A stretch of DNA of 15,685 nucleotides from positions 1-15,685 of the forward strand of contig JAHEEQ010000327.1 in the NCBI GenBank assembly GCA_024640585.1, given 5' to 3'. Origin of the DNA: Micrococcales bacterium. Lineage in GTDB: Bacteria > Actinomycetota > Actinomycetes > S36-B12 > UBA5976. The position numbers were made by a program, and so were the translations under genes. Below the pieces are notes generated by a model. That model ran no database searches. It was not told the origin of the DNA and was given only the letters and a program-made list of their open reading frames with translations. This document shows, piece by piece, positions 381 to 14,735 of the stretch (position 1 is the stretch's first letter; the number at the start of each line of letters is the position of its first letter).

Positions 381-1310
381 TTGTCAAAGCTCTCGATAGT
401 TGTGCCCGTCTACAACGAAGCGCCATCAATTAATTCGGTGGTCAATCGCATAAAAATTGCAGCCGAGGCAACGAGCCTTGAATGGGAAATCCTGTTTGTT
501 GATAATTGCAGTACCGACAAGACGAAAACCGAAATTCTTAGATTTGCAGAAAATGATAACCGCATAAAATACATACGATTTAGTCGAAACTTTGGGCCAA
601 GCGTAGAGGCATCAATAGACGCGGGATATAGACACGCTTCTGGAGATGCAATTATGGTCATCTATTCCGACTTGCAAGACCCGCCGGAATTAATTCCGCA
701 ATTTGTGGAAAAATGGAAATCAGGCTTTGACGTTGTATATGGGGTTCAAAAAACTCGAACCGGAGAGCCATTGTGGCGCAGAATTGCAGTGAAGATCTTT
801 TACAAAATCTTAAAAAATGTAAGCGACTCTCCAACGATGACGGACTCCGGCGACTTCAAACTGATTTCAAGAAGAGTATTGGAAGTGCTGATTGAGATGC
901 CTGAGAAGGCGAGATTTACGCGTGGACTAATCTCTTGGCTCGGCTTTCCTTCAGCGAGCATTGCCTACGATAGGCTGCCCAGGGACACTGGCAAAAGTAA
1001 AGCAAACTTTCTTGCGATTTCACGCACAGCAATTACAGCCGTTACGTCATTTTCGTTGAAGCCCTTACGGATCCTCTCAGGATTTGGAATATTGGTCACC
1101 TTACTTTCGCTAATTTTTATGTTCGCGCTAGTTGGGGGGGCTATTTTTGGAAAACCACAACCTGGCATTACGACATTGGCTTGCCTAGCATTACTTTCTC
1201 TCGGCTTGAACATGGGCGCACTAGGACTGATAGGAGAGTATTTGGGTCGAATACAACAGGAAGTTAAAAATCGGCCACTTTTTGTGATCGAGGAAAAGAT
1301 TAATTTCTAA
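381..1310 (+). CDS. Polyprenyl-phosphate sugar transferase, GT2 family (GtrB/ArnC/DPM1-like)
   Basis: A 309-residue inner-membrane glycosyltransferase expected to move a sugar from a nucleotide donor to undecaprenyl phosphate on the cytoplasmic face. The GT-A domain begins at once with SIVVPVYNE (5-13), followed by VDNCSTD (40-46). The signature DLQDPPE (97-103) gives the metal-binding DxxD. GDFKLISRR (157-165) and RDTGKSK (201-207) match conserved family blocks. Two hydrophobic segments (about 231-256 and 264-286) and GEYLGRI (285-291) form the usual C-terminal membrane part. The TTG start is favoured because the GT fold starts at residue 4-5 and no ATG precedes it. Its 3' end overlaps the opposing transketolase gene by 11 bp. 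The transferred sugar cannot be read from sequence; the adjacent CDP-sugar genes make a deoxysugar a reasonable guess. No GtrA-type flippase gene lies beside it. Confidence 0.9.
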   Translation: MSKLSIVVPVYNEAPSINSVVNRIKIAAEATSLEWEILFVDNCSTDKTKTEILRFAENDNRIKYIRFSRNFGPSVEASIDAGYRHASGDAIMVIYSDLQDPPELIPQFVEKWKSGFDVVYGVQKTRTGEPLWRRIAVKIFYKILKNVSDSPTMTDSGDFKLISRRVLEVLIEMPEKARFTRGLISWLGFPSASIAYDRLPRDTGKSKANFLAISRTAITAVTSFSLKPLRILSGFGILVTLLSLIFMFALVGGAIFGKPQPGITTLACLALLSLGLNMGALGLIGEYLGRIQQEVKNRPLFVIEEKINF

Positions 1311-2214
1311 GTAATTCGATTATTTTTGTTTCAATTCCTAATGGGCTTAATCCAGCTAGGTTACGTAAATGGTCGGCCTGGCCTGAGTCGCGTCGAATTT
1401 CATCTCTAAGACCTATGCCAAAAACCCTTTGAAATTGGCCCACTTCACGAAAGTATTCGTATATTGCGGAGTTAAGTCCACCAGTCATGGAATGTTCTTC
1501 GATAGAAATTGCCGTGGAAAACTGCTGGAGATTTATACCTGCCAGGTTTAGCGGCTTAATCTTTGGAATTGAAGCAACCTGAGAGTTTCTAATTACGTCG
1601 ATTTCGCTAGTTTTGGTGAGATCCAAAACCTGTGCAGCGACTGAGCCAGTGACTAATAGCAAAAGTGCATTACCAGGCTTTAGGATGTTGACATCGGGTA
1701 AGGTTTGAAAGTCGTTGGACGTGATGTTTGGTTCCCCATTTTTACCAAGGCGAAGGTAAGTCGGGCAAGGGTCGGCAAGAATTGTATTAATTGCAGCCCT
1801 TACTTCATTTGGATCACAGGGCGACAATACCCTCATTCCAGGCAGGGCTCGCATAACTGCAAGGTCTTCAATAGCGTGATGAGAGTAACCGAGAGAACCA
1901 TAAGCAAGTCCAGCTCCTACAGAGACAACCGTTACTGGTAATTCGTTGTAACAGACATCATTTCTGATCTGCTCAAGGCAGCGAAAAGTAGGGAAGTTTG
2001 CAATTGAATACACAAAGGGCAGGCGACCAGAATCTGCTAACCCAGCAGCCATACCCATCATGTTTTGCTCTGCCACACCAGCGTTGAGAAATTGGGTAGG
2101 GAACTTTTCGGCAAATTGTTCGATGACCCCATAGCCCAAATCACCGGTCATGAGAAATATATTTGGGTTTTTTGAAGCAGCTTTTTCGAGCTCTTTGATG
2201 AATGCATCTCTCAA
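1300..2214 (-). CDS. Split transketolase, C-terminal subunit
   Basis: A 304-residue protein equal to the pyrimidine-binding plus C-terminal domains of transketolase. GDLGYGV (24-30) and NAGVAEQNMMGMAAGLA (44-60) hold the glutamate (E49) that activates the thiamine diphosphate aminopyrimidine. HHAIEDLAVMRALPGM (112-127) is the family's substrate-channel loop, and SIEEH (237-241) lies in the C-terminal domain. It must pair with the N-terminal subunit encoded just upstream. The TTG start overlaps that gene's TGA as TTGA, so translation is probably coupled. Located last in a sugar-nucleotide operon, it is unlikely to be the pentose-phosphate enzyme; two-carbon transfer onto a nucleotide sugar is my inference. 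The 3' end runs 11 bp into the opposing glycosyltransferase gene, and no terminator is visible between them. A DXS-type role is less likely because DXS is normally a single chain. Confidence 0.88.
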   Translation of the reverse strand: MRDAFIKELEKAASKNPNIFLMTGDLGYGVIEQFAEKFPTQFLNAGVAEQNMMGMAAGLADSGRLPFVYSIANFPTFRCLEQIRNDVCYNELPVTVVSVGAGLAYGSLGYSHHAIEDLAVMRALPGMRVLSPCDPNEVRAAINTILADPCPTYLRLGKNGEPNITSNDFQTLPDVNILKPGNALLLLVTGSVAAQVLDLTKTSEIDVIRNSQVASIPKIKPLNLAGINLQQFSTAISIEEHSMTGGLNSAIYEYFREVGQFQRVFGIGLRDEIRRDSGQADHLRNLAGLSPLGIETKIIELLRN

Positions 2215-3020
2215 TTCATGCCTTCTAACTCCAAAAGTGCCTTTGAGAGCAATTCACCTGACGGAGATTTGTAGTGCCACAAAACCGTATTCTCCATGAA
2301 CGAAACCCCATAGCCCTTAATTGTGTTGCAGATCACCACTTTGGGACAGGTTCTAGTACCGAGGTCTCCGAAGACAGCATTGTGAATCTCCTGGTGATTA
2401 TGCCCATCTACCACTTCAACTGTCCACCCAAAAGAGAGCCATTTTGAAGTAAAAGGTTCAAGAGAAATTGTGGATTCAGTGCTCCCGAGTGATTGCAGTC
2501 CATTTCTATCCACTAAAACCGTTAAGTTAGCAAGCTTTAAATGGGAGGCGACTAGGGCAGCCTCCCAGTTACTCCCTTCGTCACATTCACCGTCGGACAA
2601 GACAACAAAGAAGTTCTTACTCTGCTTATCTAAATTTGCGGCATAAGCCTTGCCAGTAGCAAAAGGCAAAGCATGACCCAATGAACCGGTTGAAAGATTA
2701 ACACCTGGGACCCCGTGCTTATTTACATGACCAATTAGAGGGGAGTCATTTTCGCAATATTCGTCTAGCCATTCTTTAGGAAACACCCCAGCATTCGCCA
2801 TAACAGCGTAGGTGCCGGCAGCAGCGTGCCCCTTTGATACATAAAAAGATTTAAGGTCAAGAAATGACTTAAGACTAGGGTTCCCTAATCCGTCGTAAAG
2901 CACTGCCAGCATGTCAATTATTGACAATGAAGACCCAATGTGAGCCGCTTTGGCGCTAGCAGTCATTTTTACTGCACTAATTCGCGAGGCATTTGCCAGC
3001 TTTTCTGAGGTTGTTGTCAT
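2211..3020 (-). CDS. Split transketolase, N-terminal (thiamine-diphosphate-binding) subunit
   Basis: A 269-residue protein equal to the diphosphate-binding domain of transketolase. Visible motifs are AAHIGSSLS (25-33, active-site His27), SKGHAAAG (62-69, His65), GSLGHALPFATG (112-123, His116), and the thiamine/metal site SDGECDEGSNWEAA (142-155) completed by DRN (171-173). DGHN (205-208) and NTIKGYG (232-238) are also typical. Together with the C-terminal subunit it should form a heteromeric ketol-transferring enzyme in the cytoplasm. It overlaps the upstream fusion gene by ATGA and the downstream subunit by TTGA, strong signs of one operon and stoichiometric expression. Split transketolases occur in primary metabolism and in secondary and polysaccharide clusters. 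The surrounding CDP-deoxysugar genes favour the latter here. The acceptor substrate cannot be read from sequence. Confidence 0.9.
   Translation of the reverse strand: MTTTSEKLANASRISAVKMTASAKAAHIGSSLSIIDMLAVLYDGLGNPSLKSFLDLKSFYVSKGHAAAGTYAVMANAGVFPKEWLDEYCENDSPLIGHVNKHGVPGVNLSTGSLGHALPFATGKAYAANLDKQSKNFFVVLSDGECDEGSNWEAALVASHLKLANLTVLVDRNGLQSLGSTESTISLEPFTSKWLSFGWTVEVVDGHNHQEIHNAVFGDLGTRTCPKVVICNTIKGYGVSFMENTVLWHYKSPSGELLSKALLELEGMN
2221..2226 (-). promoter_or_regulatory. Shine-Dalgarno supporting the TTG start of the transketolase C subunit
   Basis: On the minus strand AGAAGG lies six bases before the TTG at 2214-2212, inside the end of the upstream subunit gene. It supports TTG as the true start, since no ATG or GTG is available in that frame close by. 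Confidence 0.5.
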
Positions 3021-4819
3021 GAAATTTGACTTCTAACAGCTTCTCCTATTTTGGCGACTGAAGCTCTCGTCAATCCCACTCCGCTAGGCAAGTTAATCGC
3101 ATTCCTTCCTATCTCGAGCGCAATTGGACCCGGTTTGGAGGGGACTGGCCAAAATTCATATTGACTTATTGCTGGAAACGCGGGACGAGAATCAATCCCT
3201 CCCGCCCTTAGCTTCAATATGAAATCATCCCTGTTGAGGCCGGTTTCACTCCCCAGAACAATTGACGACATCCAGTGAATTGAGCGAGTACCGGGTTCTT
3301 CGAATTGCATGCGAACGCCGTCAATCCCCTGGAACTCCTCTTCGTACCACTGACGAATTCTCCGTTTACGGCTGATTTGATTTTCAGCTCTATGAAGTTG
3401 GCCAAGTCCCAAAGCGGCCGTTGCGTTTGACATTTTATATTTGTATCCAAGTTCTTCAATCCAGAAAGTACCAGGCCTTCTTCCATGGTCTTGGAGTTTG
3501 CGAGCTCGAGCGTAAAGCTCCGGATTACTTGTGACAATCATGCCGCCTTCGCCGGTTACAAGCATCTTTGCGCCCTGAAAGCTATAACATCCAAAATCAC
3601 CAAAAGTTCCGACCGCCTGGTCGCCTACAAGTGAACCAATTGCAGGAGCCGCATCCTCAACCACGAAAAGGCTGTACTTTTTAGCGATGGCCATAATTGC
3701 CGGCATTTGTGCAGCAAATCCGTACAAGTGAACCGGGACGATGGCCTTTGTTTTTTCGGTGATGACTGCCTCTATATTCTTCTCAGTAATCAACCAACTT
3801 GCTGGATCAACGTCTGCAAAAACAGGAGTTGCGCCAACGTATCTGACGGCTGAGGCAGTAGCGACCCAGGTAATTTCTGGAACGATAACTTCATCTCCTG
3901 GACCTATGCCCAGAGACAAAAGAGAAAGATGAAGGGCACCAGTGCAACTACTTGTTGCCATGGCAAATTCGGCACCGACGTAATCTGCGAATTCTTTTTC
4001 AAAAGACGATAGATAGTCTGAATGACGAGAGTTCCAGCCATTCGAAATCGCATCAAACGAAAAAGCTTTTTCTTTAGCGCCTATGTCCGGACCAGCAGTG
4101 AGAATTAGGTCCGGAACTCCTTGCCCACTAATTAGGGATTTTTCTAAAACTAAGAACTGATCAACTTCCGGTTGTCCCGGAACTAGATTCACAAAGCCGG
4201 TATCTTCATTTTTTGCGAGAGGAATTGAAGATTTTTCAATGTATCCAAGTCGTTGATAAAAACCGACCGCTCTAGAGTTTGACTTCAGTACCCTCAAAGT
4301 TAGGGATTCGACTGAAAATTCCTGTTCAGCAAATTTTTCAATACGCTTCATACAGGAGGCCATAATTCCAGGAACATCCGGAACTCCACGCAGGACATTG
4401 TCAATTTCGAGCGAATTTGTATTTCCGTCATAGACCAAGCCAATGTGCCCTAACGGACGAAGGTGTAAATCTACAATCCAAAAAAGCAGTCGCCCTGCAT
4501 TTTCAATTACCGCATTAGCCAACCAATTTCGTGTTCCGTCAAACGTGACTGGAAACCTAGTTGGATAGGCGTACTCATGATCTGCCCTCCATTTTCCCAG
4601 AAGAGTAATTTTATGATTGTCGTAATTATCAAGGCGACCCATCGGCAATAGGTAGCCTACAAGTACACCATCATCATTTGGAACTTCGACTGCTCTGCCA
4701 GCAAGGTCTGTTAAATTTACGCTTGACTTATAGAAATCTGCAGTTTGTTTGAAGTAAGTTTCCAATTCAAATTTTGCAATTGGCGTTGCTTTAGAGTTCA
4801 TTTTTACCAAATTTTCCAT
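3017..4819 (-). CDS. Bifunctional GNAT N-acetyltransferase / DegT-DnrJ-EryC1-StrS sugar aminotransferase fusion
   Basis: A 600-residue two-domain protein. Residues about 45-230 form a GNAT domain: GHIGLVY (124-130), EIDNVLRG (138-145) and the C-terminal acetyl-CoA-fold block NSRAVGFYQRLGY (181-193). Residues about 240-600 are a complete fold-type I PLP aminotransferase of the sugar family. VVEDAAPAIGS (386-396) has the Asp that contacts the PLP ring nitrogen. SFQGAK (413-418) supplies the Schiff-base lysine K418, followed by GEGGM (423-427) and KMSNATAALGLGQL (462-475). The likely role is to aminate a keto-sugar nucleotide and acetylate the new amine in one polypeptide. The aminotransferase part is close to the normal family length, so nothing appears lost by the fusion. 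The start overlaps rfbF by 16 bp. Which carbonyl is used is unknown; the split transketolase next door suggests a side-chain ketone. A C4 amino sugar is the main alternative. Confidence 0.88.
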   Translation of the reverse strand: MENLVKMNSKATPIAKFELETYFKQTADFYKSSVNLTDLAGRAVEVPNDDGVLVGYLLPMGRLDNYDNHKITLLGKWRADHEYAYPTRFPVTFDGTRNWLANAVIENAGRLLFWIVDLHLRPLGHIGLVYDGNTNSLEIDNVLRGVPDVPGIMASCMKRIEKFAEQEFSVESLTLRVLKSNSRAVGFYQRLGYIEKSSIPLAKNEDTGFVNLVPGQPEVDQFLVLEKSLISGQGVPDLILTAGPDIGAKEKAFSFDAISNGWNSRHSDYLSSFEKEFADYVGAEFAMATSSCTGALHLSLLSLGIGPGDEVIVPEITWVATASAVRYVGATPVFADVDPASWLITEKNIEAVITEKTKAIVPVHLYGFAAQMPAIMAIAKKYSLFVVEDAAPAIGSLVGDQAVGTFGDFGCYSFQGAKMLVTGEGGMIVTSNPELYARARKLQDHGRRPGTFWIEELGYKYKMSNATAALGLGQLHRAENQISRKRRIRQWYEEEFQGIDGVRMQFEEPGTRSIHWMSSIVLGSETGLNRDDFILKLRAGGIDSRPAFPAISQYEFWPVPSKPGPIALEIGRNAINLPSGVGLTRASVAKIGEAVRSQIS

Positions 4820-5574
4820 GGGGCTTTCCCTGAATTCCAGGCAGCATTTAACATTTGAGATTCTCTATATGTATCCATGGGTTGCCAAAAACCATTATGG
4901 CGATACGTGTTAACCTGTCCCGCTTGTGCCAAGTCACGAAGAGGCGCTTCTTCTAATACGGAATCGTCATCTAGGTAATTGAAGATGGATTGATTAAAGA
5001 TGAAGTATCCAATGTTGATCCAGTCTTGAACTTGAGGTTTCTCTCTAAATGCGACCACTTGTCCAAGCTGATCTGTGTCTACTACCCCAAATCGACTGGT
5101 GGGTTGAACGCATGTCATTGTTGCAACTTTATTCATATTTCTGTGGGATTTGACGAGGGCTGACAGGTCAACATCTGCAATTCCATCACCATACGTGCAT
5201 AAGAACGGCCCATCATCAAGATATCTTTCTATCTTCTTGATGCGCCCACCAGTATTTGTCTCTGGTCCAGTATCAGCGACAGTCACAGTCCAGCTCATCT
5301 CATCATGAGGACCGTGATAAGTTATGCGATCATGATCGCCTAATTTGACAGTGAAATCTGAATTTTCAAGGGCGTAGTTATAAAAATAGTGCTTGATCAT
5401 TTCTGCTTTGTATCCAGCGCAAATAACAAAATCATTTATGCCTTGTGCTCCAAGAACCTTCATTATGTGCCACAAAACTGGTCGCCCTCCAACTTCAACC
5501 ATAGGTTTTGGTCGAAATTCTGTTTCTTCTCGCATACGGGTGCCAAGCCCCCCTGCTAACAAAACTGCCTTCAT
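4804..5574 (-). CDS. rfbF: Glucose-1-phosphate cytidylyltransferase
   Basis: A 256-residue cytoplasmic enzyme that joins CTP and glucose 1-phosphate into CDP-glucose, the entry to CDP-3,6-dideoxyhexoses. The nucleotidyltransferase signature LAGGLGTRMREET (6-18) is followed by RPKPMVEVGGRPVLWHIMK (21-39) and the metal-site YGDGIADVD (128-136). REKPQ (197-201) and NIGYFIFN (207-214) belong to the RfbF family; GFWQPMDT (248-255 region) closes the substrate pocket. Length matches known RfbF (about 257). A purine-rich GGGGAAAG ten bases before the ATG supports the start. It is first in the minus-strand operon and divergent from rfbH-rfbG, so one pathway is split over two promoters. The cytidylyl assignment rests on family resemblance plus the neighbouring CDP-glucose dehydratase. 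Confidence 0.93.
   Translation of the reverse strand: MKAVLLAGGLGTRMREETEFRPKPMVEVGGRPVLWHIMKVLGAQGINDFVICAGYKAEMIKHYFYNYALENSDFTVKLGDHDRITYHGPHDEMSWTVTVADTGPETNTGGRIKKIERYLDDGPFLCTYGDGIADVDLSALVKSHRNMNKVATMTCVQPTSRFGVVDTDQLGQVVAFREKPQVQDWINIGYFIFNQSIFNYLDDDSVLEEAPLRDLAQAGQVNTYRHNGFWQPMDTYRESQMLNAAWNSGKAPWKIW
4824..4831 (-). promoter_or_regulatory. Shine-Dalgarno fixing the start of the GNAT-aminotransferase fusion
   Basis: Minus-strand AGGGAAAG ends four bases before the ATG at 4819. The next in-frame ATG (4801) has no such element, so the 16-bp overlap with rfbF is favoured as real. Confidence 0.5.
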
Positions 5575-5683
5575 ATTGCGACCACTTTCCCCTTATTTAA
5601 GTCAAGAATTTCAACACAAACTTCTAACTAAGAGAATAGGACTAAAATCTAAGCAATAACGAGAAAGACTAGGGCTACCTTCT
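5575..5683. promoter_or_regulatory. Divergent intergenic region between rfbF and rfbH operons
   Basis: These 109 bp are the only noncoding space between the two divergent operons and should carry both promoters. The plus strand shows TAAAAT (5643-5648), and the minus strand TATTCT (plus positions 5638-5633). Both fit TANNNT, but neither has a convincing -35 at 16-18 bp. A purine-rich ribosome site for rfbF lies at its left end. The presence of promoters is inferred from gene order; the exact boxes are uncertain. Confidence 0.5.
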
Positions 5684-6994
5684 ATGAACCAAGAAGACTT
5701 TCGAGAACGAATCCTAGGTGAAGTTTCAAAGTTTGCTGAAGTTGAGTTAAAGAAGACCTCCTTTATTCGCGGTAAATCGGTGGTTCCTGTATCTGGAAAA
5801 GTGCTATTTCCTGATGACTACGCTGCTCTTGTAGATGCTTCCCTTGATGGTTGGCTAACTGCAGGGAGATTTCACGAAGAATTTCAGCGACAACTATCAA
5901 GATATGTCGGTGCACGAAGCGCGGTGTTTGTAAATAGCGGTTCAAGCGCCAACTTGGTCGCTTTGAGTGCCCTAACCAGTCAAAAACTCGGTAAAAGAGC
6001 TTTGAAACCAGGGGACGAGGTAGTAACAGTAGCGGCGGGATTCCCCACTACGGTGAACCCAATAATTCAAAATGGTTTGATACCGGTAGTGGTAGATATC
6101 GAGTTAGGGACCTACGACGCCATTTCAGAACAGCTCAGGGAGGCAATTGGCCCAAAAACTAAGGCCATCATGATGGCGCACACCCTTGGAAACCCATTTG
6201 ACCTTGACACTGTCCAGTCTTTGTGCCGAGAAAATGATTTATGGCTAATTGAGGATTCTTGCGATGCCTTGGGATCAACTTATGGCGGTAAGAAAACCGG
6301 TAGTTTCGGCGACACAGCTACTTTGAGTTTTTATCCAGCACATCACATAACAACGGGCGAGGGGGGCGCAGTTTTTGTTAAATCGCCCCTAGTGCGAAAG
6401 CAAGTTGAATCCTTTAGGGACTGGGGAAGAGACTGCTACTGTGAAACCGGCCACGACGACACATGCCAAAAAAGATTCGAATGGCAGTTAGGTGACTTAC
6501 CACGTGGCTACGACCATAAATACATTTATAGTCACATTGGCTACAACTTGAAGGCAACAGACATGCAAGCTGCATTGGGCCTCTCGCAGCTAAAGAAAAT
6601 AGAATTATTTACTGCTGCCAGGAAACGGAATTTTGAATATTTGAAATCAAAACTTATAGGTGTCCAGGGCCTAATCCTTCCGAAGGCGACTTTCAATTCA
6701 GACCCATCATGGTTCGGCTACCCCATAACTTTAGACCCGGCTAGCCCAGTAGACAGAGCGGGGTTACTCAAGTTTTTGGATTCGCGGAAAATTGGGTCGA
6801 GGCTACTATTTGCAGGAAATCTTTTGAAACAACCCGCGTACCGAAACGTAGATTTTAGAGTTGTTGGAAATCTGGAAAATACCGATATTGTCATGAATCG
6901 AACTTTTTGGGTGGGTACCTACCCGGGCTTGACATTCGAGATGCTTGATTTTATTGCCGAATCTATCGCTGAATACGTTCAAAGTTATAAATAA
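5684..6994 (+). CDS. rfbH: CDP-4-keto-6-deoxy-D-glucose-3-dehydrase (E1, RfbH/DdhC)
   Basis: A 436-residue PMP- and [2Fe-2S]-dependent enzyme that removes the C3 hydroxyl of CDP-4-keto-6-deoxyglucose. The fold is that of DegT aminotransferases, with NSGSSANLVAL (84-94) and IEDSCDALGS (189-198, Asp191). The PLP lysine is replaced by histidine in SFYPAHHITTGEGG (215-228; His220 at the expected place). The four cluster cysteines C193, C251, C253 and C261 reproduce the family spacing C-X57-C-X1-C-X7-C exactly, which separates it from ordinary sugar aminotransferases and from ColD. Length equals characterised E1 (about 437). E1 needs electrons from an E3-type flavin/iron-sulfur reductase (RfbI/DdhD/AscD), which is not in this window. 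It is first in the plus-strand operon, two bases ahead of rfbG. Confidence 0.95.
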   Translation: MNQEDFRERILGEVSKFAEVELKKTSFIRGKSVVPVSGKVLFPDDYAALVDASLDGWLTAGRFHEEFQRQLSRYVGARSAVFVNSGSSANLVALSALTSQKLGKRALKPGDEVVTVAAGFPTTVNPIIQNGLIPVVVDIELGTYDAISEQLREAIGPKTKAIMMAHTLGNPFDLDTVQSLCRENDLWLIEDSCDALGSTYGGKKTGSFGDTATLSFYPAHHITTGEGGAVFVKSPLVRKQVESFRDWGRDCYCETGHDDTCQKRFEWQLGDLPRGYDHKYIYSHIGYNLKATDMQAALGLSQLKKIELFTAARKRNFEYLKSKLIGVQGLILPKATFNSDPSWFGYPITLDPASPVDRAGLLKFLDSRKIGSRLLFAGNLLKQPAYRNVDFRVVGNLENTDIVMNRTFWVGTYPGLTFEMLDFIAESIAEYVQSYK

Positions 6995-6996
6995 CC

Positions 6997-8085
6997 ATGA
7001 TTTCGTTTGAGGCGCTTTCTGGAAAAAAAGTATTCCTTACCGGGCATACAGGGTTCACGGGATCTTGGGCGTCTATCTGGCTATCTCAAATAGGAGCCGA
7101 AGTTCTTGGGTACTCATTAGAGCCCGATACTGTGCCAAATCTTTTTAACGCCGCTGAGGTACACAATTTTGTCACGAGCAATACAGGTGACGTACGAGAT
7201 TATCCTTCACTTCTGAGGTCGATGCAGAATTTTAAGCCAGATCTAGTTTTGCACCTTGCAGCTCAGCCTCTCGTTAGCAGGAGTTATCGCTACCCACGAG
7301 AGACCTTCGATATTAACTGTCAAGGCACCGCAAACGTCTTAGAGGCAGTCCTGAACACCCAGTCAGTAAAGGGTGTTCTTTGTGTCACAACTGACAAGGT
7401 TTATAAAAATCTTGAGACTGGACGAGCCTTCATTGAAAACGACGAGCTCGGCGGGAAAGACCCTTACTCTTCCTCTAAGGCGGCGGCCGAACTCACGATA
7501 AATAGTTACAGAGAACTATTTAGAACCAAGGAGACGGCCCCAATACTATCCGTTGCCCGCGGCGGCAACATTATTGGAGGCGGGGACTGGTCGGAAGACC
7601 GAATAGTGCCAGACTTCATAAGGGCATTTCAAACAAACCAAACTCTCAAGGTAAGAAATTTTGATGCGACTCGACCATGGCAGCATGTTATTTCACTGCT
7701 TGACGGGTATTTCTCTATTTTGGCCGGGATGCTTGGAAGTGATAAATCTGACTTTGATCGGGCATTTAATTTGGGCCCAATCCAGGAGGCCCCTGTTTCA
7801 GTCAGGCAATTACTGAGGCTACTTCAAGACAGAATTCCAAGCGTAAAATTAGCTGAGCATGGGACTTCTTTCGCCGAAGCAGAGTTATTGTCGTTGAACA
7901 GCTCGCTCGCGCAGAAAACATTTAATTGGCAACCTTTGTGGGGTACCAAGGAAACTATTGATAAAACGGCCTCTTGGTACCAAAGCTATTTGTCTGATAG
8001 TTCGGAGGCTCTGGAGCTTTGTTTGAAACAGATTTCAGACTGGTCAAAATTGCGTGCAGGTGAACTAGGGAAGACAAATTTATAG
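6997..8085 (+). CDS. rfbG: CDP-glucose 4,6-dehydratase
   Basis: A 362-residue extended short-chain dehydrogenase that converts CDP-D-glucose to CDP-4-keto-6-deoxyglucose with bound NAD. The dinucleotide motif is GHTGFTG (16-22). The catalytic TTDK (131-134) and Y157-xxx-K161 (in YSSSK) are present. RGGNIIGGGDW (188-198) and RPWQHV (226-231) with a following GY are characteristic of CDP-glucose rather than dTDP-glucose dehydratases. Length is normal (about 357-360). The ATG lies two bases after the rfbH stop with no clear Shine-Dalgarno, so coupled translation is likely. It supplies the substrate for RfbH and acts after RfbF. Confidence 0.95.
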   Translation: MISFEALSGKKVFLTGHTGFTGSWASIWLSQIGAEVLGYSLEPDTVPNLFNAAEVHNFVTSNTGDVRDYPSLLRSMQNFKPDLVLHLAAQPLVSRSYRYPRETFDINCQGTANVLEAVLNTQSVKGVLCVTTDKVYKNLETGRAFIENDELGGKDPYSSSKAAAELTINSYRELFRTKETAPILSVARGGNIIGGGDWSEDRIVPDFIRAFQTNQTLKVRNFDATRPWQHVISLLDGYFSILAGMLGSDKSDFDRAFNLGPIQEAPVSVRQLLRLLQDRIPSVKLAEHGTSFAEAELLSLNSSLAQKTFNWQPLWGTKETIDKTASWYQSYLSDSSEALELCLKQISDWSKLRAGELGKTNL

Positions 8086-8095
8086 CGCGCGGTCA

Positions 8096-9613
8096 GTGGG
8101 CCTAAAAAAACAAGAGGCCTCTCCTTTCTTAGCGAGGTACAACCTAGCTCAAAATATGAAAGTCTCTGCTGGTGTGGTTTTACTAGTTTTCTTCTACGCC
8201 TTTACGCTTCTTTTTTACATTGAATTAGCTGGGAAACCCTTTTCGTTGGATGATCCTACATACTTACTAAATGCAGAAAAATCGTCATCTTCTTCAAATA
8301 TTCAAAATATTTTTGGCAGCACGCTCGCGAACCGATTTAGACCAGTAAGCGACATTGCTCAATTTTTGTCCTTTAGGGTCGCAGGTGAAAACCCCTATGT
8401 ATGGTGGTTAATAAACTGTGCATTAATTGCACTTACGGCCTTTTTGCTTACTTATGCAGTAAATGAAAATTTCTCTAACAGATTGTTTGGCGTTGCTGCA
8501 GGATTATCTTTTTTAACATCTAGATTTCTGCAATACAACGCATCCCAAGTTGTTGGCGTCATGGAATCAACCAACAACATATTATTTGCTTTGATTTTAA
8601 TCTTCATTCAAAAACATTCAAAAACGAGCAACCTAAAGTACCTCTATGGGGCAGTAGCTTTTTTCACTCTAATTTGTTTTTCTCATGAACGATTTCAAAC
8701 TATTTTCGCGGCATTGGCTATGTACATCGCACTTTTATCCTTTCAAAGGAAACGAACAAAATATTCCCTATTGCTAATGTTGGCCGCGCCATTGTGTGTT
8801 CTTGCCTGGATCAAAAGCGCCATGCACTTTCCTCAGATAGTCGGCACTGGTTCAGTTACCGAACTGGGTTTTAGGTGGGACACTACGTTCATACACACCT
8901 GCGAAGGGTTGCTGCAAGTTTTCGGTATAAATTTTGGGCCCGGATACTTAGTGGGTGTGAGTTATGAGTTTGCCCCACTCTGGTTACAAAGCCTAGGTGC
9001 AATAGTTTTCGTTTCTGCTGCTATCTTTTGCGCAAAATACATAGGCAAATTACGCGGCCGTGTGGCGAAAAACGATTTGAATCGAATTGACCTTTATTGG
9101 CCCGTTCTGTTCCTTTTTGCGTTATTGCCAGGACTAGTAACAATAAGACTTGAACAACGCTGGTTAGCTGCACCAATGTTGGTAATAATATTTGTCTTCT
9201 CGAAAGCCTTGAATGAGAGAGAAAGACTTTTGAGGATTTCTGCGCGCATTTTCTTAGTTGGTTATTTAGCCATGAATTTCTTTTATGTCTCTAACTCGAG
9301 TTCAATCTTTTTTAGGGGCACGCAAGATTACGCAATTCGACTCCTATCTACTCTGGATAGCGCTTGGTTAGAATCCTCAAAATTGTCTTCTTCAATTATT
9401 TTGATTTCTAAAAATGATCCAAAGGGCTTGGCGGAAAATTTCGAACGCATAATGCTTGCGAACACTCGAACAAATAGTCACATACTCGGATATTCGTCTC
9501 TCGATGAAGCGAACGCGACAAATGAATCAAGCAGCGACTTTATTTTTGAATACGATGTTCACAACGGCAATTTAATACCAATTACAGACACAATTGAACG
9601 CAGATCACTTTAG
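8096..9613 (+). CDS. Polytopic membrane protein, probable GT-C-type glycosyltransferase
   Basis: A 505-residue integral membrane protein with about ten hydrophobic segments (roughly 24-44, 104-122, 128-146, 158-173, 183-215, 224-240, 297-312, 333-350, 357-370, 383-398) and a soluble C-terminal tail of about 100 residues. The first loop has LDDPTY (51-56), and NRFRPVSDI (79-87) precedes the second segment, a layout typical of GT-C enzymes using polyprenyl-linked sugars. SHERFQT (196-202) is a second polar loop motif. Such proteins transfer a sugar outside the membrane, which would fit the GtrB-like gene at 381. The start is GTG, ten bases after rfbG, with no obvious ribosome site; ATG at residue 21 is an alternative that keeps every membrane segment. 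I recognise the layout but not a specific family, so the function is inference. Confidence 0.65.
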   Translation: MGLKKQEASPFLARYNLAQNMKVSAGVVLLVFFYAFTLLFYIELAGKPFSLDDPTYLLNAEKSSSSSNIQNIFGSTLANRFRPVSDIAQFLSFRVAGENPYVWWLINCALIALTAFLLTYAVNENFSNRLFGVAAGLSFLTSRFLQYNASQVVGVMESTNNILFALILIFIQKHSKTSNLKYLYGAVAFFTLICFSHERFQTIFAALAMYIALLSFQRKRTKYSLLLMLAAPLCVLAWIKSAMHFPQIVGTGSVTELGFRWDTTFIHTCEGLLQVFGINFGPGYLVGVSYEFAPLWLQSLGAIVFVSAAIFCAKYIGKLRGRVAKNDLNRIDLYWPVLFLFALLPGLVTIRLEQRWLAAPMLVIIFVFSKALNERERLLRISARIFLVGYLAMNFFYVSNSSSIFFRGTQDYAIRLLSTLDSAWLESSKLSSSIILISKNDPKGLAENFERIMLANTRTNSHILGYSSLDEANATNESSSDFIFEYDVHNGNLIPITDTIERRSL

Positions 9614-9621
9614 GCAAGCAC

Positions 9622-11382
9622 GTGAAACCTACATCTTTATTCTCAAAACCTAGCTTGAAAGCTATGAAGAGTTTTTACGTTGGCTACTCTTTAGTGCTAG
9701 CGATAGCATCAATCGCGCGAGGGTTTTGGTCCGCCCCTGCTGCTAGATGGCAAGCAGACTTCTGGTTCATAAAGGATATCGATTTATTACTGAGTGGAAA
9801 ACTTGACCAAGTTGTTTGGTTTACGTGGGGAGGAGGGCAGGCAACAAATGGCTATCGGTGGTTTTCGTACCTAAGCTCAGTCCTATTTAAGTTTGATCCC
9901 CAAGTCGAAATTATCGTCTACGGGCTGGTTCTCTTTGCTCTATCACTGATGCTAGGAAGCCAAGTAGTTCCCCAGAACGGCCTTATGACGAGACGTTCTT
10001 TCCTAGTAAGCCTTTTAATTCCAACAGTATTGTTTAGCCTCATTGGCTCCTATCCCCGCGGAATGGAACTTGGAACTTTTACAGGTCTAGTGATTATGAT
10101 CTGGTTCGTAAATAATTTAGCGAAAACCAAAACCAAAACCAAGGAAAGCTACTTAGTTCAAGGATTAGTGGCTGCCATTGTTGGGCTATTACTCTTTTTT
10201 ATTTTCATGGGTGGCTATGCTTTAGGTTTAACTTTCGCACTCATCTTGGTTGCACTATTTCAAAGATTTGGAATTAGAAAGCCAAATCGAATTCTAGAGC
10301 TTTCAACCGTCGTCTATACGTGCACATCAGCGCTTTTCGCATTATCTCTCAGACTTGCCTCTTCTACTGAAGAGGCAAGCGCAATCTCAAAACTTATGTC
10401 ACAGGTTGAATCAAATAGCTTTTTCATACCAACATTTTTGTTATCAGCTCCATCTGCAGGCTTAGTAACTTCCCAGACTCTGGAGAATGTGAGCCAGGAT
10501 TTGTCAATTCCTTTAGTGTGTTGCTCATCTATTTTGCTACTAATTTATTCCTCATATTTAGTGCGCAAAACTTCCACAAAACACACCGTGGGCAATAGCT
10601 TGGCCCCTCAAATTTTGTTCTCCTATGGGCTTGGGACAGCGCTAATGCTTTTACTATTTAGACCAAATGATCAACTTCAACTTCTCAATCCGTGGTACGC
10701 GCTTCATTTTAAAGTAATGATCTGCTCAATCATTTCCCTCAGCATATTAATCAATGAAAGAAATGGGATAAAATCCAAAGTCAGTGGACGACTTATATCC
10801 ATTGCTTCAGTCCTTATTTTCTTAGTGGCCGTGTCCGCAAGTTATGTACAATATGTGCGTCAAAACTCAGAGCGAGAGTATTTTCTAAATGTTGCAGCTG
10901 TAGAGCTCTATCCGAAATTGTTGAATTCTGAATCAACTATGACACCACTTATCCTCCCGTACGCAGAATCCATTAACGCAATAAGAATCCTGAAAAAACA
11001 TAGCCTGAGCCCATATTCCGTTTCCGCGAAGATAAGTAAAATTCTCGGCGGCAAGGAGGGAATTTTATTGGGCGGAAGTTCTTTTGGAGATGGTTGGGTC
11101 GGAAAGGATTCCAAGCTGATCACTTTGAAGGCAAGTTGTAAGAAAATTCAGCTCATGTTCGACGTACCCAATTTCATAAAGGATCAGAGCTTGATTTTAA
11201 CTGTTGGTTCAAAAAGAACATCCCTAAATTCAGTTCAACTCAAAAGCGCCATCGAGATAGATGAAATGAAGGTGGGTGAGCCGATTCACATGACTTTTGG
11301 TGTTGAGACCATACCTGCAAAAATCGGCATTAACGATGACCAGCGTGCCCTATCCGCACATCTACTTGCTACGTGCAACTAA
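9622..11382 (+). CDS. Polytopic membrane protein with C-terminal extracytoplasmic domain, function unknown
   Basis: A 586-residue protein whose first 405 residues hold about ten hydrophobic stretches (for example 20-36, 95-112, 127-143, 150-164, 180-212, 228-244, 296-314, 330-346, 362-377, 390-408). A soluble domain of about 180 residues follows. The first loop has DFWFIKDIDLL (46-56), an acidic pair in a GT-C-like position, but no clear GT-C motif confirms it. The C-terminal part (about 487-582) begins GDGWVG, has an alternating beta-type pattern, and ends IPAKIGINDDQRALSAHLL (564-582). That ending resembles small beta domains appended to some surface-sugar glycosyltransferases. The start is GTG, eight bases after the previous stop; ATG at residue 15 is an alternative. 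It may be a second extracytoplasmic glycosyltransferase or a polymer-modifying protein. I do not recognise the family. Confidence 0.6.
   Translation: MKPTSLFSKPSLKAMKSFYVGYSLVLAIASIARGFWSAPAARWQADFWFIKDIDLLLSGKLDQVVWFTWGGGQATNGYRWFSYLSSVLFKFDPQVEIIVYGLVLFALSLMLGSQVVPQNGLMTRRSFLVSLLIPTVLFSLIGSYPRGMELGTFTGLVIMIWFVNNLAKTKTKTKESYLVQGLVAAIVGLLLFFIFMGGYALGLTFALILVALFQRFGIRKPNRILELSTVVYTCTSALFALSLRLASSTEEASAISKLMSQVESNSFFIPTFLLSAPSAGLVTSQTLENVSQDLSIPLVCCSSILLLIYSSYLVRKTSTKHTVGNSLAPQILFSYGLGTALMLLLFRPNDQLQLLNPWYALHFKVMICSIISLSILINERNGIKSKVSGRLISIASVLIFLVAVSASYVQYVRQNSEREYFLNVAAVELYPKLLNSESTMTPLILPYAESINAIRILKKHSLSPYSVSAKISKILGGKEGILLGGSSFGDGWVGKDSKLITLKASCKKIQLMFDVPNFIKDQSLILTVGSKRTSLNSVQLKSAIEIDEMKVGEPIHMTFGVETIPAKIGINDDQRALSAHLLATCN
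10123..10142 (+). repeat. Short hexanucleotide repeat (AAAACC, three copies plus AA)
   Basis: Three exact AAAACC units plus two bases lie in the membrane-protein gene at 9622 and encode an alternating Lys-Thr run (about residues 168-174) in a loop between two membrane segments. Unit loss or gain would keep the frame. Confidence 0.8.
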
Positions 11383-11461: not shown

Positions 11462-13798
11462 GTGTTAGACATTTTTAGACGAGTCTCAGGTGCGGCATTG
11501 CTGTTCCTGCTTAGGTCCGCCCTTAAGTCAGTGCGCATAATCCAGAAAACTTGTACGACAAACGCATCTAAAATCTCTGTTGAGTCAATCTCGCAATCGG
11601 CTTATGTAGGACCAAACTCCATTGGCAAAATCGCCATTCTAATTCCGGCTTTTAACAACTGGGAATTGACATCAAACTGTTTGAAAAGCATCTTAAAAAC
11701 AGAAGATTCTAAAATTGCTGACGTTTGGGTTGTTGACGATGCATCAACTGATGAAACCAGAGCGAGCCTAGAAAGTTATTTTCCGGAAATCAAAGTTATT
11801 CACAATGACATTAATTTAGGATTTTTACTTTCATGCAACAACGCCTTTGAGGCTTTAGGCCCTCACTACGACTGGATTCACCTTCTGAACAACGACACTT
11901 CAGTGAACCAAGGCTTTTTACTTGAGGCTCTTGAGGTCGCTAGGGAACACACTGAAGCCGCACTCGTAGGAAGCAAGCTACTCTACCCAGGCGGGACTCT
12001 CCAAGAGGCAGGCGGTATTTTTTGGAGAAACGGTAACGCCTGGAATGTCGGACGAAACGGAAATGCTGAAACCTTGGCGTTTAACATCGATCGGCAGGTC
12101 GACTACTGTTCAGGTGCGTCATTATTACTAAGGACCGAGGCGCTTCGAAGCGTCGGTTACTTCAGCGAAGAATTTCTTCCGGCGTATTGCGAAGACGCAG
12201 ATTTAGCATTTAAATTGCGTAAAGCTGGATTCGAGACTTGGTACGCTCATAAATCCGAAGTCATTCACCTCGAAGGAATGTCCCACGGTATAGACAGCAC
12301 AGAGGGTATCAAAGCACATCAGGTAAAGAATCTGCGAACTTTTGAAGTTAAGTGGCGCCAAGAACTTAAATCTCACATCGAGGAAGACCCATTCAGGCTA
12401 TTAGATGCCGCCTTCAGATTATCGCCAGGTCTAAAACCATCGAATCAAGAATCCATGCCAGTAGGAGAATTCGACTGGATACCAACTACCCTGCTCCCGT
12501 TAGCAAATCGACTTGCAAACTTCTACATTCAGAATTCAGCTAGAAGCTACAGAGACTTACTGTTCAGACAAAATCGCCTGCGACAAAGACTGCCGAGACC
12601 TATTGGCAAGTTCAGTAAAATCCAATCCAAACCAAATTCGGGATTCATTCTTATTGTCGACCACGCCATTCCCAAGCCTGACACAAACGCTGGTGATTCG
12701 CTTACCTTTTCATATTTGAAACTACTTAGATGCATGGGCAAAGATGTGGTTTTCTTTCCCGTTGCTTTACCGGTCCGAGATTCATACTATGAAGACCTAA
12801 TTGAATTAGGCGTGAAAGTCATTGACGCCAATGAAACTTTTGAAGAGTGGATTGGGTCAAACGGTAGTCAGTTGGATCGTGCTTGGATAGCACGGCCTGA
12901 GATCGCGATCAAAACAATAAAATCTATTCGCCGTAATTCATCGGCACCCATCGCCTATTTAACGCATGATGTACACCACTTACGCTTGCGAGCGCAGGCG
13001 AAAATAAAGCGAAACCCCCTCATTTACTTGAACAGCTTGACGATGGAAGTAAAAGAGAAAAGAATATTTCGTGACGTTGACTTGATTCTTTCGATTTCAA
13101 CGGAGGAGTCGGCCTATATTGCATCAAGGAATATTCAAACACAAATTTCTACACTCGTTCCATATTTCCTTTGGAGCGATGCACCAACACCTCGACTACA
13201 GAACTCTTTTAAGAATGCTTCTGCGCTGGTGTTTTTGGGAGGCTACAGGCATGAACCAAACAGGGATGCTGCCGAAATTCTCGCAAAAAAAATTATGCCG
13301 CTAGTCTGGCAGAAGAAACCCGACACAATACTTACGTTGGCTGGCAGTTTTCCAGATCAAACAATTTTGTCTCTGGCAAATGACCGAATTAGGGTTCCTG
13401 GAAAAGTAGACGACATAAAAAAACTTTTTGATGAGAATTCTGTATTTGTTGCCCCACTCCGATTTGGTGCCGGAGTTAAGGGTAAAACCATAGAAGCTAT
13501 GAAATTTGGAATACCAGTTGTTGGATCGCGTGTCGCTTTCCAGGGAATTCAAGTCAAGGATAACGAGGAAGCCTTAGTAGGCGAAGACGAACAGGAAATC
13601 GCGTCGCTAATCCTTACACTTTTGGAGTCTCCCCCTATGTGTGAAGAGATTTCGAAGAAATCTATAGATTTCGTAAAACGGGAGTACTCTCTAGATTCCG
13701 CTCGTGAAAGTCTCAGGACTTTTCTGGACCTTGAAGTTCCTCTTTTGCGAAAAACAGAAAAATTTGACCCTAAAAGCATGAAAAGTCAAGATGCCTAA
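11462..13798 (+). CDS. Two-domain glycosyltransferase, GT2 + GT4 fusion
   Basis: A 778-residue cytoplasmic or membrane-associated enzyme with two complete glycosyltransferase domains. The N-terminal GT2 domain (about 56-300) shows AILIPAFNNWELT (58-70), VVDDASTDET (90-99), the nucleotide-sugar site LLNNDTSV (141-148) and CEDADLAFKLRKAGF (243-257); it resembles rhamnosyl- or galactofuranosyl-type enzymes. A linker (about 300-390) leads to a GT4/GT-B domain (about 394-760) with VDHAIPKPDTNAGD (399-412), THDVHHLRLRAQA (501-513), LGGYRHEPNRDA (592-603), and APLRFGAGVKGKTIEAMKFG (664-683), the donor-binding helix region. It probably adds two different sugars in sequence to the repeat unit. A short hydrophobic stretch (10-19) may touch the membrane. 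The start is GTG, possibly leaderless. The end overlaps the RgpF-like gene by 8 bp. Donor and acceptor sugars are not readable from sequence. Confidence 0.9.
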   Translation: MLDIFRRVSGAALLFLLRSALKSVRIIQKTCTTNASKISVESISQSAYVGPNSIGKIAILIPAFNNWELTSNCLKSILKTEDSKIADVWVVDDASTDETRASLESYFPEIKVIHNDINLGFLLSCNNAFEALGPHYDWIHLLNNDTSVNQGFLLEALEVAREHTEAALVGSKLLYPGGTLQEAGGIFWRNGNAWNVGRNGNAETLAFNIDRQVDYCSGASLLLRTEALRSVGYFSEEFLPAYCEDADLAFKLRKAGFETWYAHKSEVIHLEGMSHGIDSTEGIKAHQVKNLRTFEVKWRQELKSHIEEDPFRLLDAAFRLSPGLKPSNQESMPVGEFDWIPTTLLPLANRLANFYIQNSARSYRDLLFRQNRLRQRLPRPIGKFSKIQSKPNSGFILIVDHAIPKPDTNAGDSLTFSYLKLLRCMGKDVVFFPVALPVRDSYYEDLIELGVKVIDANETFEEWIGSNGSQLDRAWIARPEIAIKTIKSIRRNSSAPIAYLTHDVHHLRLRAQAKIKRNPLIYLNSLTMEVKEKRIFRDVDLILSISTEESAYIASRNIQTQISTLVPYFLWSDAPTPRLQNSFKNASALVFLGGYRHEPNRDAAEILAKKIMPLVWQKKPDTILTLAGSFPDQTILSLANDRIRVPGKVDDIKKLFDENSVFVAPLRFGAGVKGKTIEAMKFGIPVVGSRVAFQGIQVKDNEEALVGEDEQEIASLILTLLESPPMCEEISKKSIDFVKREYSLDSARESLRTFLDLEVPLLRKTEKFDPKSMKSQDA

Positions 13799-14735
13799 AA
13801 CAAATAGAAGAACATTTGTTTCAAAATTAGTTGCATTAGCTTACTTCACATTAGAAAAACGGAAGTCCTTTTCAGAACTCTTTCCAAATGCAGATTACTC
13901 AAAGAAAAATTTAGTGCCTGAGCCTCGACAAAAAATGGTAGACATATCCACTGTCGCAATTACGGCTCATATTTACTATCCAGAATTCACGCGAGAATTA
14001 TTTAACCTAACCAAAGATTGGCCTCCGGGAAGTAGTTTGTTTATAACAACCATGGAGAATAAGCAGGAGTCAGAGATAAGGAAACTTTTTTCCAATAGAG
14101 ATTTCAATTTGGACATCAGAGTTGTTCCAAACGTTGGTAGAAATTTTGGCCCACTCTTGGTCGAATTCTCGAGTGAACTTCAAAATTATGAGTTTTTCTT
14201 GCACGTGCACTCAAAAAAAAGTAATCACGGCCCGTCAGGCTTAGGATCCAACTGGGCCAACAGAAGTTTTGACCTCCTGCTAGACCCAGTGAAGTTGGGA
14301 AGGGCGCTTACGCTGATGAAGACTTCGCCAAAACTTGCAATTAGCTTTGCCGAAAGTCGTGACTTATTGCGTGGCATGAACTTTAGGTGGGGTCAAAGCA
14401 GGAAAGTGACTCAAAAGTTAGTTGGCACTCTAGGTATCACGGACGAGCTTAGATGGCAGGGACCAATCTCTTTTCCAGCTGGGGGAATGTTCCTATGTCG
14501 TTCTTCAGCTTTTATTGAGATTTTAAGTTTCCCCTGGAGCTATGACATGTTTCCCTTTGAGACAGGGCAGATTGACGGCACCCTGCAACATGGTATTGAG
14601 AGACTTTTTGGAGAGCTGCCTTTAGCCAAAGGGTTTAGCCAAGCTGTCTACGTTAAAAAGCTGGATGGTTTCTACGTTGAATCTACTGATATTTTGATAA
14701 AAGCTAGGAAGAGTTCCCGAAATGAAAATGCGTAA
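13791..14735 (+). CDS. RgpF-like polysaccharide biosynthesis protein (rhamnan synthesis F family)
   Basis: A 314-residue protein resembling the rhamnan synthesis protein F family, whose members lie in rhamnose-glucose polysaccharide and O-antigen clusters and are thought to be glycosyltransferases. Recognisable blocks are VAITAHIYYPE (55-65), NVGRNFGPLL (114-123), FFLHVHSKKS (135-144), PAGGMFLCRSSAF (229-241) and GQIDGTLQHGIERLFG (259-274). It has no clear transmembrane helix or signal peptide, so it should act on the cytoplasmic side. It overlaps the GT2-GT4 gene by 8 bp and the ABC permease gene by 14 bp, consistent with one transcript. Its placement directly before the exporter genes suggests a role in chain assembly or a terminal step; that is inference. 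Confidence 0.82.
   Translation: MPKTNRRTFVSKLVALAYFTLEKRKSFSELFPNADYSKKNLVPEPRQKMVDISTVAITAHIYYPEFTRELFNLTKDWPPGSSLFITTMENKQESEIRKLFSNRDFNLDIRVVPNVGRNFGPLLVEFSSELQNYEFFLHVHSKKSNHGPSGLGSNWANRSFDLLLDPVKLGRALTLMKTSPKLAISFAESRDLLRGMNFRWGQSRKVTQKLVGTLGITDELRWQGPISFPAGGMFLCRSSAFIEILSFPWSYDMFPFETGQIDGTLQHGIERLFGELPLAKGFSQAVYVKKLDGFYVESTDILIKARKSSRNENA

Follow-up and report, generated by a model that had tools for sequence, protein, structure and literature searches.

The question raised by this locus is what product would require RfbF, RfbG and RfbH, three enzymes of cytidine diphosphate (CDP)-linked sugar synthesis, together with a split transketolase and a fusion of a GNAT acetyltransferase and an aminotransferase. 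The genes are located at positions 1300-8085 of contig JAHEEQ010000327.1 from a Micrococcales bacterium (GenBank assembly GCA_024640585.1); the whole stretch that was analysed, 15,685 nucleotides, is called the window below. A first-pass annotation of this DNA had given every one of these genes a place in a single pathway, in which the transketolase would branch a CDP-linked ketosugar and the fusion protein would aminate and acetylate the branch. Comparative genomics supports this proposal through the co-occurrence of the genes and the exchange of transketolase for lyase and of aminotransferase for reductase; the chemistry is inferred. The cassette probably builds an undescribed surface sugar, in which a repurposed split transketolase adds a two-carbon branch and the branch then receives an acetylated amine. 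We place at about 0.7 the probability that the product is a CDP-linked, C4-branched, N-acetylated amino octose formed by the steps proposed here.

All six genes and their enzyme families, as first annotated, were confirmed by Pfam, NCBIfam and PDB matches. They form two divergent operons separated by a 109-base gap (5575-5683), in which both promoters are presumed to lie. According to the map of open reading frames (ORFs), the minus-strand operon has the order rfbF, fusion gene, TKN, TKC with overlaps of 16, 4 and 4 bases, which bears out the statement that the rfbF operon encodes both the split transketolase and the fusion. RfbF (4804-5574, minus strand) is a glucose-1-phosphate cytidylyltransferase (TIGR02623, 330.7 bits against a cut-off of 300.25). 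The fusion gene (3017-4819, minus strand) codes for a GNAT N-acetyltransferase domain (residues 1-232, positions 4124-4819, edge approximate) followed by a DegT/DnrJ/EryC1/StrS aminotransferase domain (residues 238-600, positions 3017-4108). The DegT domain matches PF01041 with 350 bits. The GNAT scores are marginal, 27.1 bits against a cut-off of 25.4 for PF13302 and 22.3 against 20.7 bits for PF00583, and the PseH equivalog model gives 28.4 bits, below its cut-off of 93.1. TKN (2211-3020, minus strand), the N-terminal half of the split transketolase that binds thiamine diphosphate (ThDP), matches Transketolase_N (5.4e-28) and has 6yak as its nearest PDB entry; TKC (1300-2214, minus strand), the C-terminal half, contains the Pfam domains Transket_pyr and Transketolase_C and is nearest to 6yaj. 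Both PDB entries belong to the split transketolase of Carboxydothermus. Against the full-length model NF004559, of which each half covers a part, TKN and TKC score 208.7 and 125.9 bits with a cut-off of 488. The plus-strand operon consists of rfbH (5684-6994), coding for a CDP-4-keto-6-deoxyglucose 3-dehydrase of the E1 type (NF011936, 692.5 bits against 423; nearest PDB entry 3bcx), and, 2 bases apart from it, rfbG (6997-8085), coding for a CDP-glucose 4,6-dehydratase (TIGR02622, 411.2 bits against a cut-off of 278.45).

The proposed pathway begins with reactions known for the families of RfbF, RfbG and RfbH. RfbF would form CDP-glucose, RfbG would convert it to CDP-4-keto-6-deoxyglucose, and RfbH, supplied with electrons by an unlinked reductase, would produce CDP-4-keto-3,6-dideoxyglucose. 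The split transketolase would then take a hydroxyacetyl group from a ketose donor, which is probably a sugar phosphate, and attach it at the C4 ketone, giving a tertiary alcohol with a ketone in the side chain. In this it would do the job of YerE, which uses pyruvate as donor in yersiniose synthesis, as the gene exchange and the pocket residues described below suggest. The DegT domain is predicted to aminate the side-chain ketone, whereas synthesis of the yersiniose type employs a reductase at this stage, and the fused GNAT domain would acetylate the amine. The expected product is CDP-3,6-dideoxy-4-C-(1-acetamido-2-hydroxyethyl)hexose. A family 2 glycosyltransferase (GT2) encoded at 381-1310 perhaps loads the finished sugar onto polyprenyl phosphate, from which it would enter the polysaccharide product of the adjacent glycosyltransferase and ABC-export genes.

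One part of the first-pass annotation needs correction. It had RfbF, RfbG and RfbH together yield CDP-4-keto-3,6-dideoxyglucose, and the families are indeed those expected, but the three proteins alone are not sufficient. In RfbH of the window His220 replaces the lysine that binds pyridoxal phosphate (PLP), and Cys193, Cys251, Cys253 and Cys261 are found at the iron-sulfur (Fe-S) positions, which we take from E1. RfbH of the Fe-S type requires the reductase RfbI/AscD, so RfbF, RfbG and RfbH by themselves would stop short of this intermediate. Among the window proteins scanned (8096-11382 by NCBIfam only and 11462-14735 by Pfam only), no RfbI/AscD (E3) partner was seen, although it could be encoded elsewhere. 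The same scan showed no reductase, epimerase or second short-chain dehydrogenase/reductase (SDR), in agreement with the earlier statement that a 4-ketoreductase and an epimerase are absent from the window, and no YerE-like thiamine lyase, the split transketolase being present instead. At 13 of the related loci described next (L010, L034, L039, L040, L043, L045, L049, L054, L061, L068, L070, L073 and L075) there is a DegT protein of the His type (motif SFYGSH or SFFGSH) that lacks the Fe-S cysteines; for the one such protein compared with the PDB, that of L061, the nearest entry is E1 itself.

The recurrence of the cassette was assessed with a profile built from 24 relatives of the fusion, with which one genome of each species was searched. 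The analysis covers the best 80 of 129 loci. They were picked by aminotransferase similarity alone, with neighbours ignored; five pairs among them share DNA, and the gene counts use fixed score limits. The neighbours of the aminotransferase include rfbF at 57 of these loci, rfbG at 62, rfbH or its His-type relative at 68 and a split transketolase at 51, which bears out the predicted co-occurrence. For the 47 loci in which the aminotransferase is flanked by 5 kb or more on each side, the counts are 41 for rfbF, 44 for rfbG and 46 for rfbH-type genes. Judged by record titles, the cassettes span more than 15 phyla and include Actinomycetota, Planctomycetota, Verrucomicrobiota, Bacteroidota, Pseudomonadota, Cyanobacteria, Acidobacteriota, Chloroflexota, Nitrospirota, Armatimonadota, Bacillota, Desulfovibrio, several candidate phyla and one thaumarchaeon. 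Because the arrangement recurs in relatives from so many phyla, it is far beyond chance. The loci nearest to the window on the aminotransferase tree are L002, L003 and L001, of which L001 and L003 are titled actinobacteria. The cassette of L002, a close kin of that in the window, is of the lyase type, and the title of this metagenome-assembled genome, Bifidobacterium breve, looks doubtful. Viral contigs contain 45 distant relatives of the aminotransferase, and only L081, an IMG/VR contig filed as viral, combines rfbH, rfbG and a lyase with a fusion-type aminotransferase. On plasmids, 19 records match the aminotransferase domain, none of them with a match that spans 80% of the fusion.

A ThDP enzyme accompanies the aminotransferase at 69 of the 80 loci, and its identity varies. 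A transketolase only is found at 48 loci, a YerE-like lyase of the acetolactate-synthase type only at 18, both at three and neither at 11. The overlap of transketolase and lyase is below that expected from independence (Fisher p 7e-8, kinship ignored). When the choice of transketolase or lyase is mapped on maximum-likelihood trees built from the aminotransferase domain, at least 13 changes are required in the careful tree, 14 in the quick tree and 8 in the quick tree if complete loci only are counted. Close cassettes can differ: L039 and L045 have a transketolase and L061 a lyase, with a support of 100 in the quick tree. Incomplete contigs explain some cases, for example L037, which is identical to L060 in the aminotransferase domain, where L060 has both enzymes. 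The TPP-enzyme domains N, M and C are present in all six lyases tested. The one lyase compared with the PDB, that of L010, matches 5ahk, which we take to be YerE of Pseudomonas protegens, with 454 bits and acetolactate synthase 6lpi with 303 bits. Eight of the 11 genomes whose locus has neither enzyme were searched further, L032, L054 and L076 being left out. A TKC with the cassette-type pocket was found outside the locus in all eight, with TKN adjoining in seven, and at one of these places (L251) rfbF and rfbG accompany the TKC. The genome-wide lyase matches in these genomes were indistinguishable from ordinary IlvB and were not used.

A second sample was drawn from the side of the dehydrase. 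The rfbH family model was run over 396 Actinomycetota and 398 Pseudomonadota genomes, of which 22 and 39 matched. The tally covers 56 rfbH loci with flanks, 15 of them shorter than 15 kb because of contig ends or a shorter stretch taken; it leaves aside G001, G013, G545, G127, G275, G224 and the secondary matches G131:C273 and G123:C76, and L197 has its DNA in common with L011 from the first set. A transketolase is found at 6 of these loci, a lyase at 25, both at none and neither at 25. Most rfbH genes of this sample occur without the fusion, since a fusion-type aminotransferase is present at only 2 of the 56 loci. A separate observation concerns the lyase-type cassette at L078 (5302-9065), which includes an acylating acetaldehyde dehydrogenase and a 4-hydroxy-2-oxovalerate aldolase. 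Hydroxylated 2-oxo-acid donors are reported for ErwE (PMC12247030), and the L078 pair could supply a hydroxylated 2-oxo acid of the kind used by ErwE-type enzymes.

The second exchange is that of aminotransferase and reductase. In nine transketolase or lyase loci without an aminotransferase, the ORF of 310-364 residues near the thiamine gene proved to be an SDR in every case (PF01370); the nine include all five transketolase loci of this kind. Within 2.5 kb of the thiamine gene, an SDR occurs at 15 of 29 loci without an aminotransferase and at 3 of 69 with one. The former count is inflated because the nine queries come from loci of the same group, and two of the 15 (L201 and L202) score only 55-58 bits; the latter three, which exclude rfbG, have weak scores of 63-86 bits. 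In a Pfam scan of 149 of the 168 ORFs flanking aminotransferase cassettes, an Epimerase-family SDR was found in 12 of 149 and adh_short in 4 of 73. SDRs thus occur beside aminotransferase cassettes, but inconsistently, and a consistently linked set of ketoreductase and epimerase, which would have counted against the proposed pathway, was not found in these relatives. Where a thiamine enzyme is present, a locus tends to have either a reductase or an aminotransferase, one in place of the other. The side-chain ketone is reduced by an SDR in pathways of the yersiniose type. Ketoreduction of C4-acetyl branches is mentioned in the abstract of PMC4753412. An aminotransferase in the place of the SDR should act on the same side-chain ketone.

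The fusion protein itself shows the features of the DegT aminotransferase family. Its PLP lysine, K418, is invariant in 24 of 24 relatives. The structure model has a mean pLDDT of 85.9, with low confidence at residues 416-423, and its best predicted structural matches are the sugar transaminase 7b0m and guanosine diphosphate (GDP)-perosamine synthase. The acyl enzymes at the 80 loci also vary, with GNAT only at 59, formyltransferase only at 10, both at three and neither at 8. N-acetyl- and N-formyltransferase therefore tend to be mutually exclusive, and this exchange fits a free amine that is formed first and capped afterwards. Of the three loci with both, L018 has its formyltransferase about 9 kb off, and the match of L074 is only 30 bits. 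Loci L031, L037, L051, L052 and L060 have a degenerate GNAT-like N-terminus, so that their label "no GNAT" holds only at the threshold used.

It is important to compare the proposed side-chain amination with amination of the sugar ring. In the latter case the aminotransferase would act at C4 of CDP-4-keto-3,6-dideoxyglucose and, with GNAT, give CDP-4-acetamido-3,4,6-trideoxyhexose, while the thiamine enzyme would serve a second sugar. The resemblance of the domain to GDP-perosamine synthase, which aminates a ring C4 ketone, favors this explanation, as do the 11 of 80 loci at which no thiamine enzyme stands alongside. However, amination at C4 would leave the thiamine enzyme without an acceptor, and yet it accompanies the aminotransferase at the other 69 loci. 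In addition, all eight tested genomes without a thiamine enzyme at the locus encode the cassette-type transketolase elsewhere, and the tendency of reductase and aminotransferase to substitute for each other at thiamine-enzyme loci also speaks against ring amination. We consider it unlikely.

Another possible joint product of transketolase and aminotransferase is a separate amino compound, either an amino sugar phosphate or an amino acid, as in the aminoshikimate pathways, with rfbFGH making an ordinary dideoxysugar. Split transketolases with DegT proteins do occur without rfbFGH, for example at L162 and in the Actinoplanes wps-2 cluster, for which the excerpt of PMC13390465 lists both proteins and names no pathway. 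However, rfbH occurs with a transketolase or lyase and without an aminotransferase at 29 of the 56 rfbH loci, which ties the thiamine enzyme to rfbFGH as well as to the aminotransferase. That an SDR to finish the sugar is found near the thiamine gene at only 3 of 69 aminotransferase loci also argues against this explanation, which appears highly improbable.

The residues of the transketolase point to a function other than the canonical one. In the window TKN keeps His27, His65, His98, Asp143, Asn173 and His249, and TKC keeps Glu49, His112 and Arg155. Among 52 cassette transketolases (51 loci and the window), His27, His65, His98, Asp143, Asn173 and Glu49 are kept in all 52, Arg2 and Arg155 in 51 and His249 in 48. 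The acceptor-binding residues are presumably those at His469 and Asp477 in yeast numbering. These positions are occupied by Gly100 and Leu108 in TKC of the window; Gly is found at the first in 52 of 52 and Asp at the second in 0 of 52, and the third pocket position is Tyr or Phe in 50 of 52. Outside the cassette, five TKC-type sequences (two full-length and three split, from five genomes) were compared, of which all five keep Asp477 and four keep His469; a sixth, from Vibrio, was aligned only in the TKN part. A second transketolase was looked for in the cassette genomes of 18 relatives. A separate full-length one (at least 660 residues) is present in 13, including the near relative G001 (locus L003), and another split or ~560-residue match in four, so that the cassette pair is in general not the sole transketolase of the genome; in G002 no second clear match was found. 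That the pair is an ordinary pentose-phosphate enzyme feeding precursors is hardly credible: the conservation of the residues for thiamine binding and catalysis (of one His in 48 of 52) and the case of G002 speak for it, but the full-length transketolase in 13 of 18 genomes and the change of both acceptor positions in 52 of 52 speak against it, and replacement by a YerE-like lyase would be unexpected for a supply enzyme.

Other split transketolases were met in these searches. At L163, L167 and L168 the enzyme is found with rfbF and rfbG and no rfbH match, which perhaps indicates branching of CDP-4-keto-6-deoxyglucose without 3-deoxygenation. Another group (L169-L173, L177 and L180; motif near NGGGLVYAPLGPTH) has no rfbF, rfbG or rfbH match nearby, and at L169 the split transketolase adjoins a radical S-adenosylmethionine (SAM) protein.

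Several observations weigh against the proposed branching and side-chain amination. In the control of 299 Pseudomonadota genomes, 27 of 30 TKC loci also have Gly without Asp. Wider flanks of 19 of the 30 (19 of the 29 outside G013) showed rfbH at none and rfbF with rfbG at three. The pocket signature is therefore not special to the cassette but marks a wider subfamily, and it is used here only as a sign of non-canonical function. Both thiamine enzymes are found together at L013, L035 and L060. The genomes without a thiamine enzyme at the locus do not contain one gene cluster, because the transketolase is apparently on another contig. In the rfbH sample 6 of the 25 lyase scores are below 300 bits, and these may be ordinary acetolactate synthases. 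To these are added the nearness of the aminotransferase to sugar transaminases such as GDP-perosamine synthase, and G002, one of 18 genomes, without a second clear transketolase. Finally, an ORF like the RfbI/E3 reductase was found with one query at only 1 of the 80 aminotransferase loci, and Pfam recognized an RfbI-type NAD domain in 2 of the 73 ORFs scanned in the flanks, which leaves the electron source of RfbH unexplained.

Beyond the single cassette, we regard a modular system as likely. Such a system would make CDP-linked C4-branched N-acylamino octoses, or neutral ones with reductases, with transketolase and lyase, aminotransferase and SDR, and GNAT and formyltransferase as interchangeable parts. 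It would include a large transketolase family that uses a nucleotide-sugar ketone as acceptor and forms tertiary alcohols.

The GT2 gene (381-1310, plus strand) is a probable part of the cassette. The protein is of the ArnC/PgfS kind, with 244 bits to NF047588 and 154 bits to NF007986, both below the cut-offs. In 33 of the 80 relatives, a GT2 homologue (more than 60 bits) lies no farther than 8 kb from the gene of the aminotransferase. In three Planctomycetes GNAT and an ArnC-like glycosyltransferase occur in a single ORF (L038:1823-3874, L056:5215-7263 and L050:10873-12924), by Pfam for L038 and by homology scores for L056 and L050, hinting that the GT2 may handle the N-acylated sugar. In the cassettes of L056 (8509-11748) and L050 (14154-17380), rfbH is followed by two ORFs of ~820 and 255-282 residues with no Pfam match at 1e-5. 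In the window, two plus-strand ORFs resembling membrane proteins lie 3' of rfbG (8096-9613 and 9622-11382) and are a possible part of the cassette. The first has a weak NCBIfam match to AZOBR_p60025 ("cell surface glycopolymer") and the second has none in NCBIfam; our guess is an outside glycosyltransferase. No homologues of either were found at the 80 relatives' loci. The remainder of the window (11462-15483) codes for a two-domain glycosyltransferase (GT2 and GT1 group), an RgpF-like protein and a Wzm-like ABC permease, and looks like an ABC-exported polysaccharide cluster.

The closest known system is the yersiniose A pathway, consisting of RfbF, RfbG, RfbH, YerE and a side-chain reductase, which shares the CDP-4-keto-3,6-dideoxyglucose precursor and the C4 branching by a ThDP enzyme according to the excerpt of PMC12247030. 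In the window YerE is exchanged for the split transketolase and the reductase for the aminotransferase and acetyltransferase. In the same excerpt, ErwE of erwiniose synthesis and other YerE-like enzymes branch this CDP-ketosugar with various 2-oxo-acid donors (PMC12247030). The lyase-bearing relatives look similar; however, the excerpt mentions no amination for erwiniose, and no such lyase is seen in the window. For the split transketolases of miharamycin and amipurimycin from Streptomyces a hydroxyacetyl transfer onto a keto-sugar has been proposed (PMC12247030). The products are nucleoside antibiotics and not CDP-sugars. This review gives 13 putative sequences of such keto-sugar transketolases, all from Streptomycetes and none shown in vitro (PMC12247030).

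AptA and AptB of apiose breakdown (E. coli SE15) also form a split transketolase, with identities of 38% (AptA) and 31% (AptB) to the window pair. AptB has Leu at the Asp477 position, as in the window, but Asn and not Gly at the His469 position. AptB has the ketone on the acceptor side, and AptA/AptB are catabolic with a sugar-phosphate substrate. The aminotransferase domain shares its fold and PLP lysine with GDP-perosamine synthase and the ArnB-type DegT enzymes. The latter aminate a ring ketone, whereas in the window a side-chain ketone is the predicted substrate and the aminotransferase domain is preceded by a fused GNAT domain. No report of a transketolase working with rfbFGH was found among the literature matches listed, as excerpted. 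Split transketolases acting on keto-sugars have already been proposed for the Streptomyces nucleosides; a transfer linked to rfbFGH would be new enzymology if shown.

If the proposed pathway is true, there would be dozens of candidate transketolases, some of them in cultured bacteria such as Polynucleobacter sp. 73C-SIWE and Chromobacterium subtsugae (L018), with CDP-4-keto-3,6-dideoxyglucose as the acceptor and a predicted fate of the product. From gene content one could then distinguish a hydroxyacetyl branch from an acetyl branch, and a branch that ends as an amine from one that ends as an alcohol. It would also predict a class of surface sugars that is absent from the literature matches listed.

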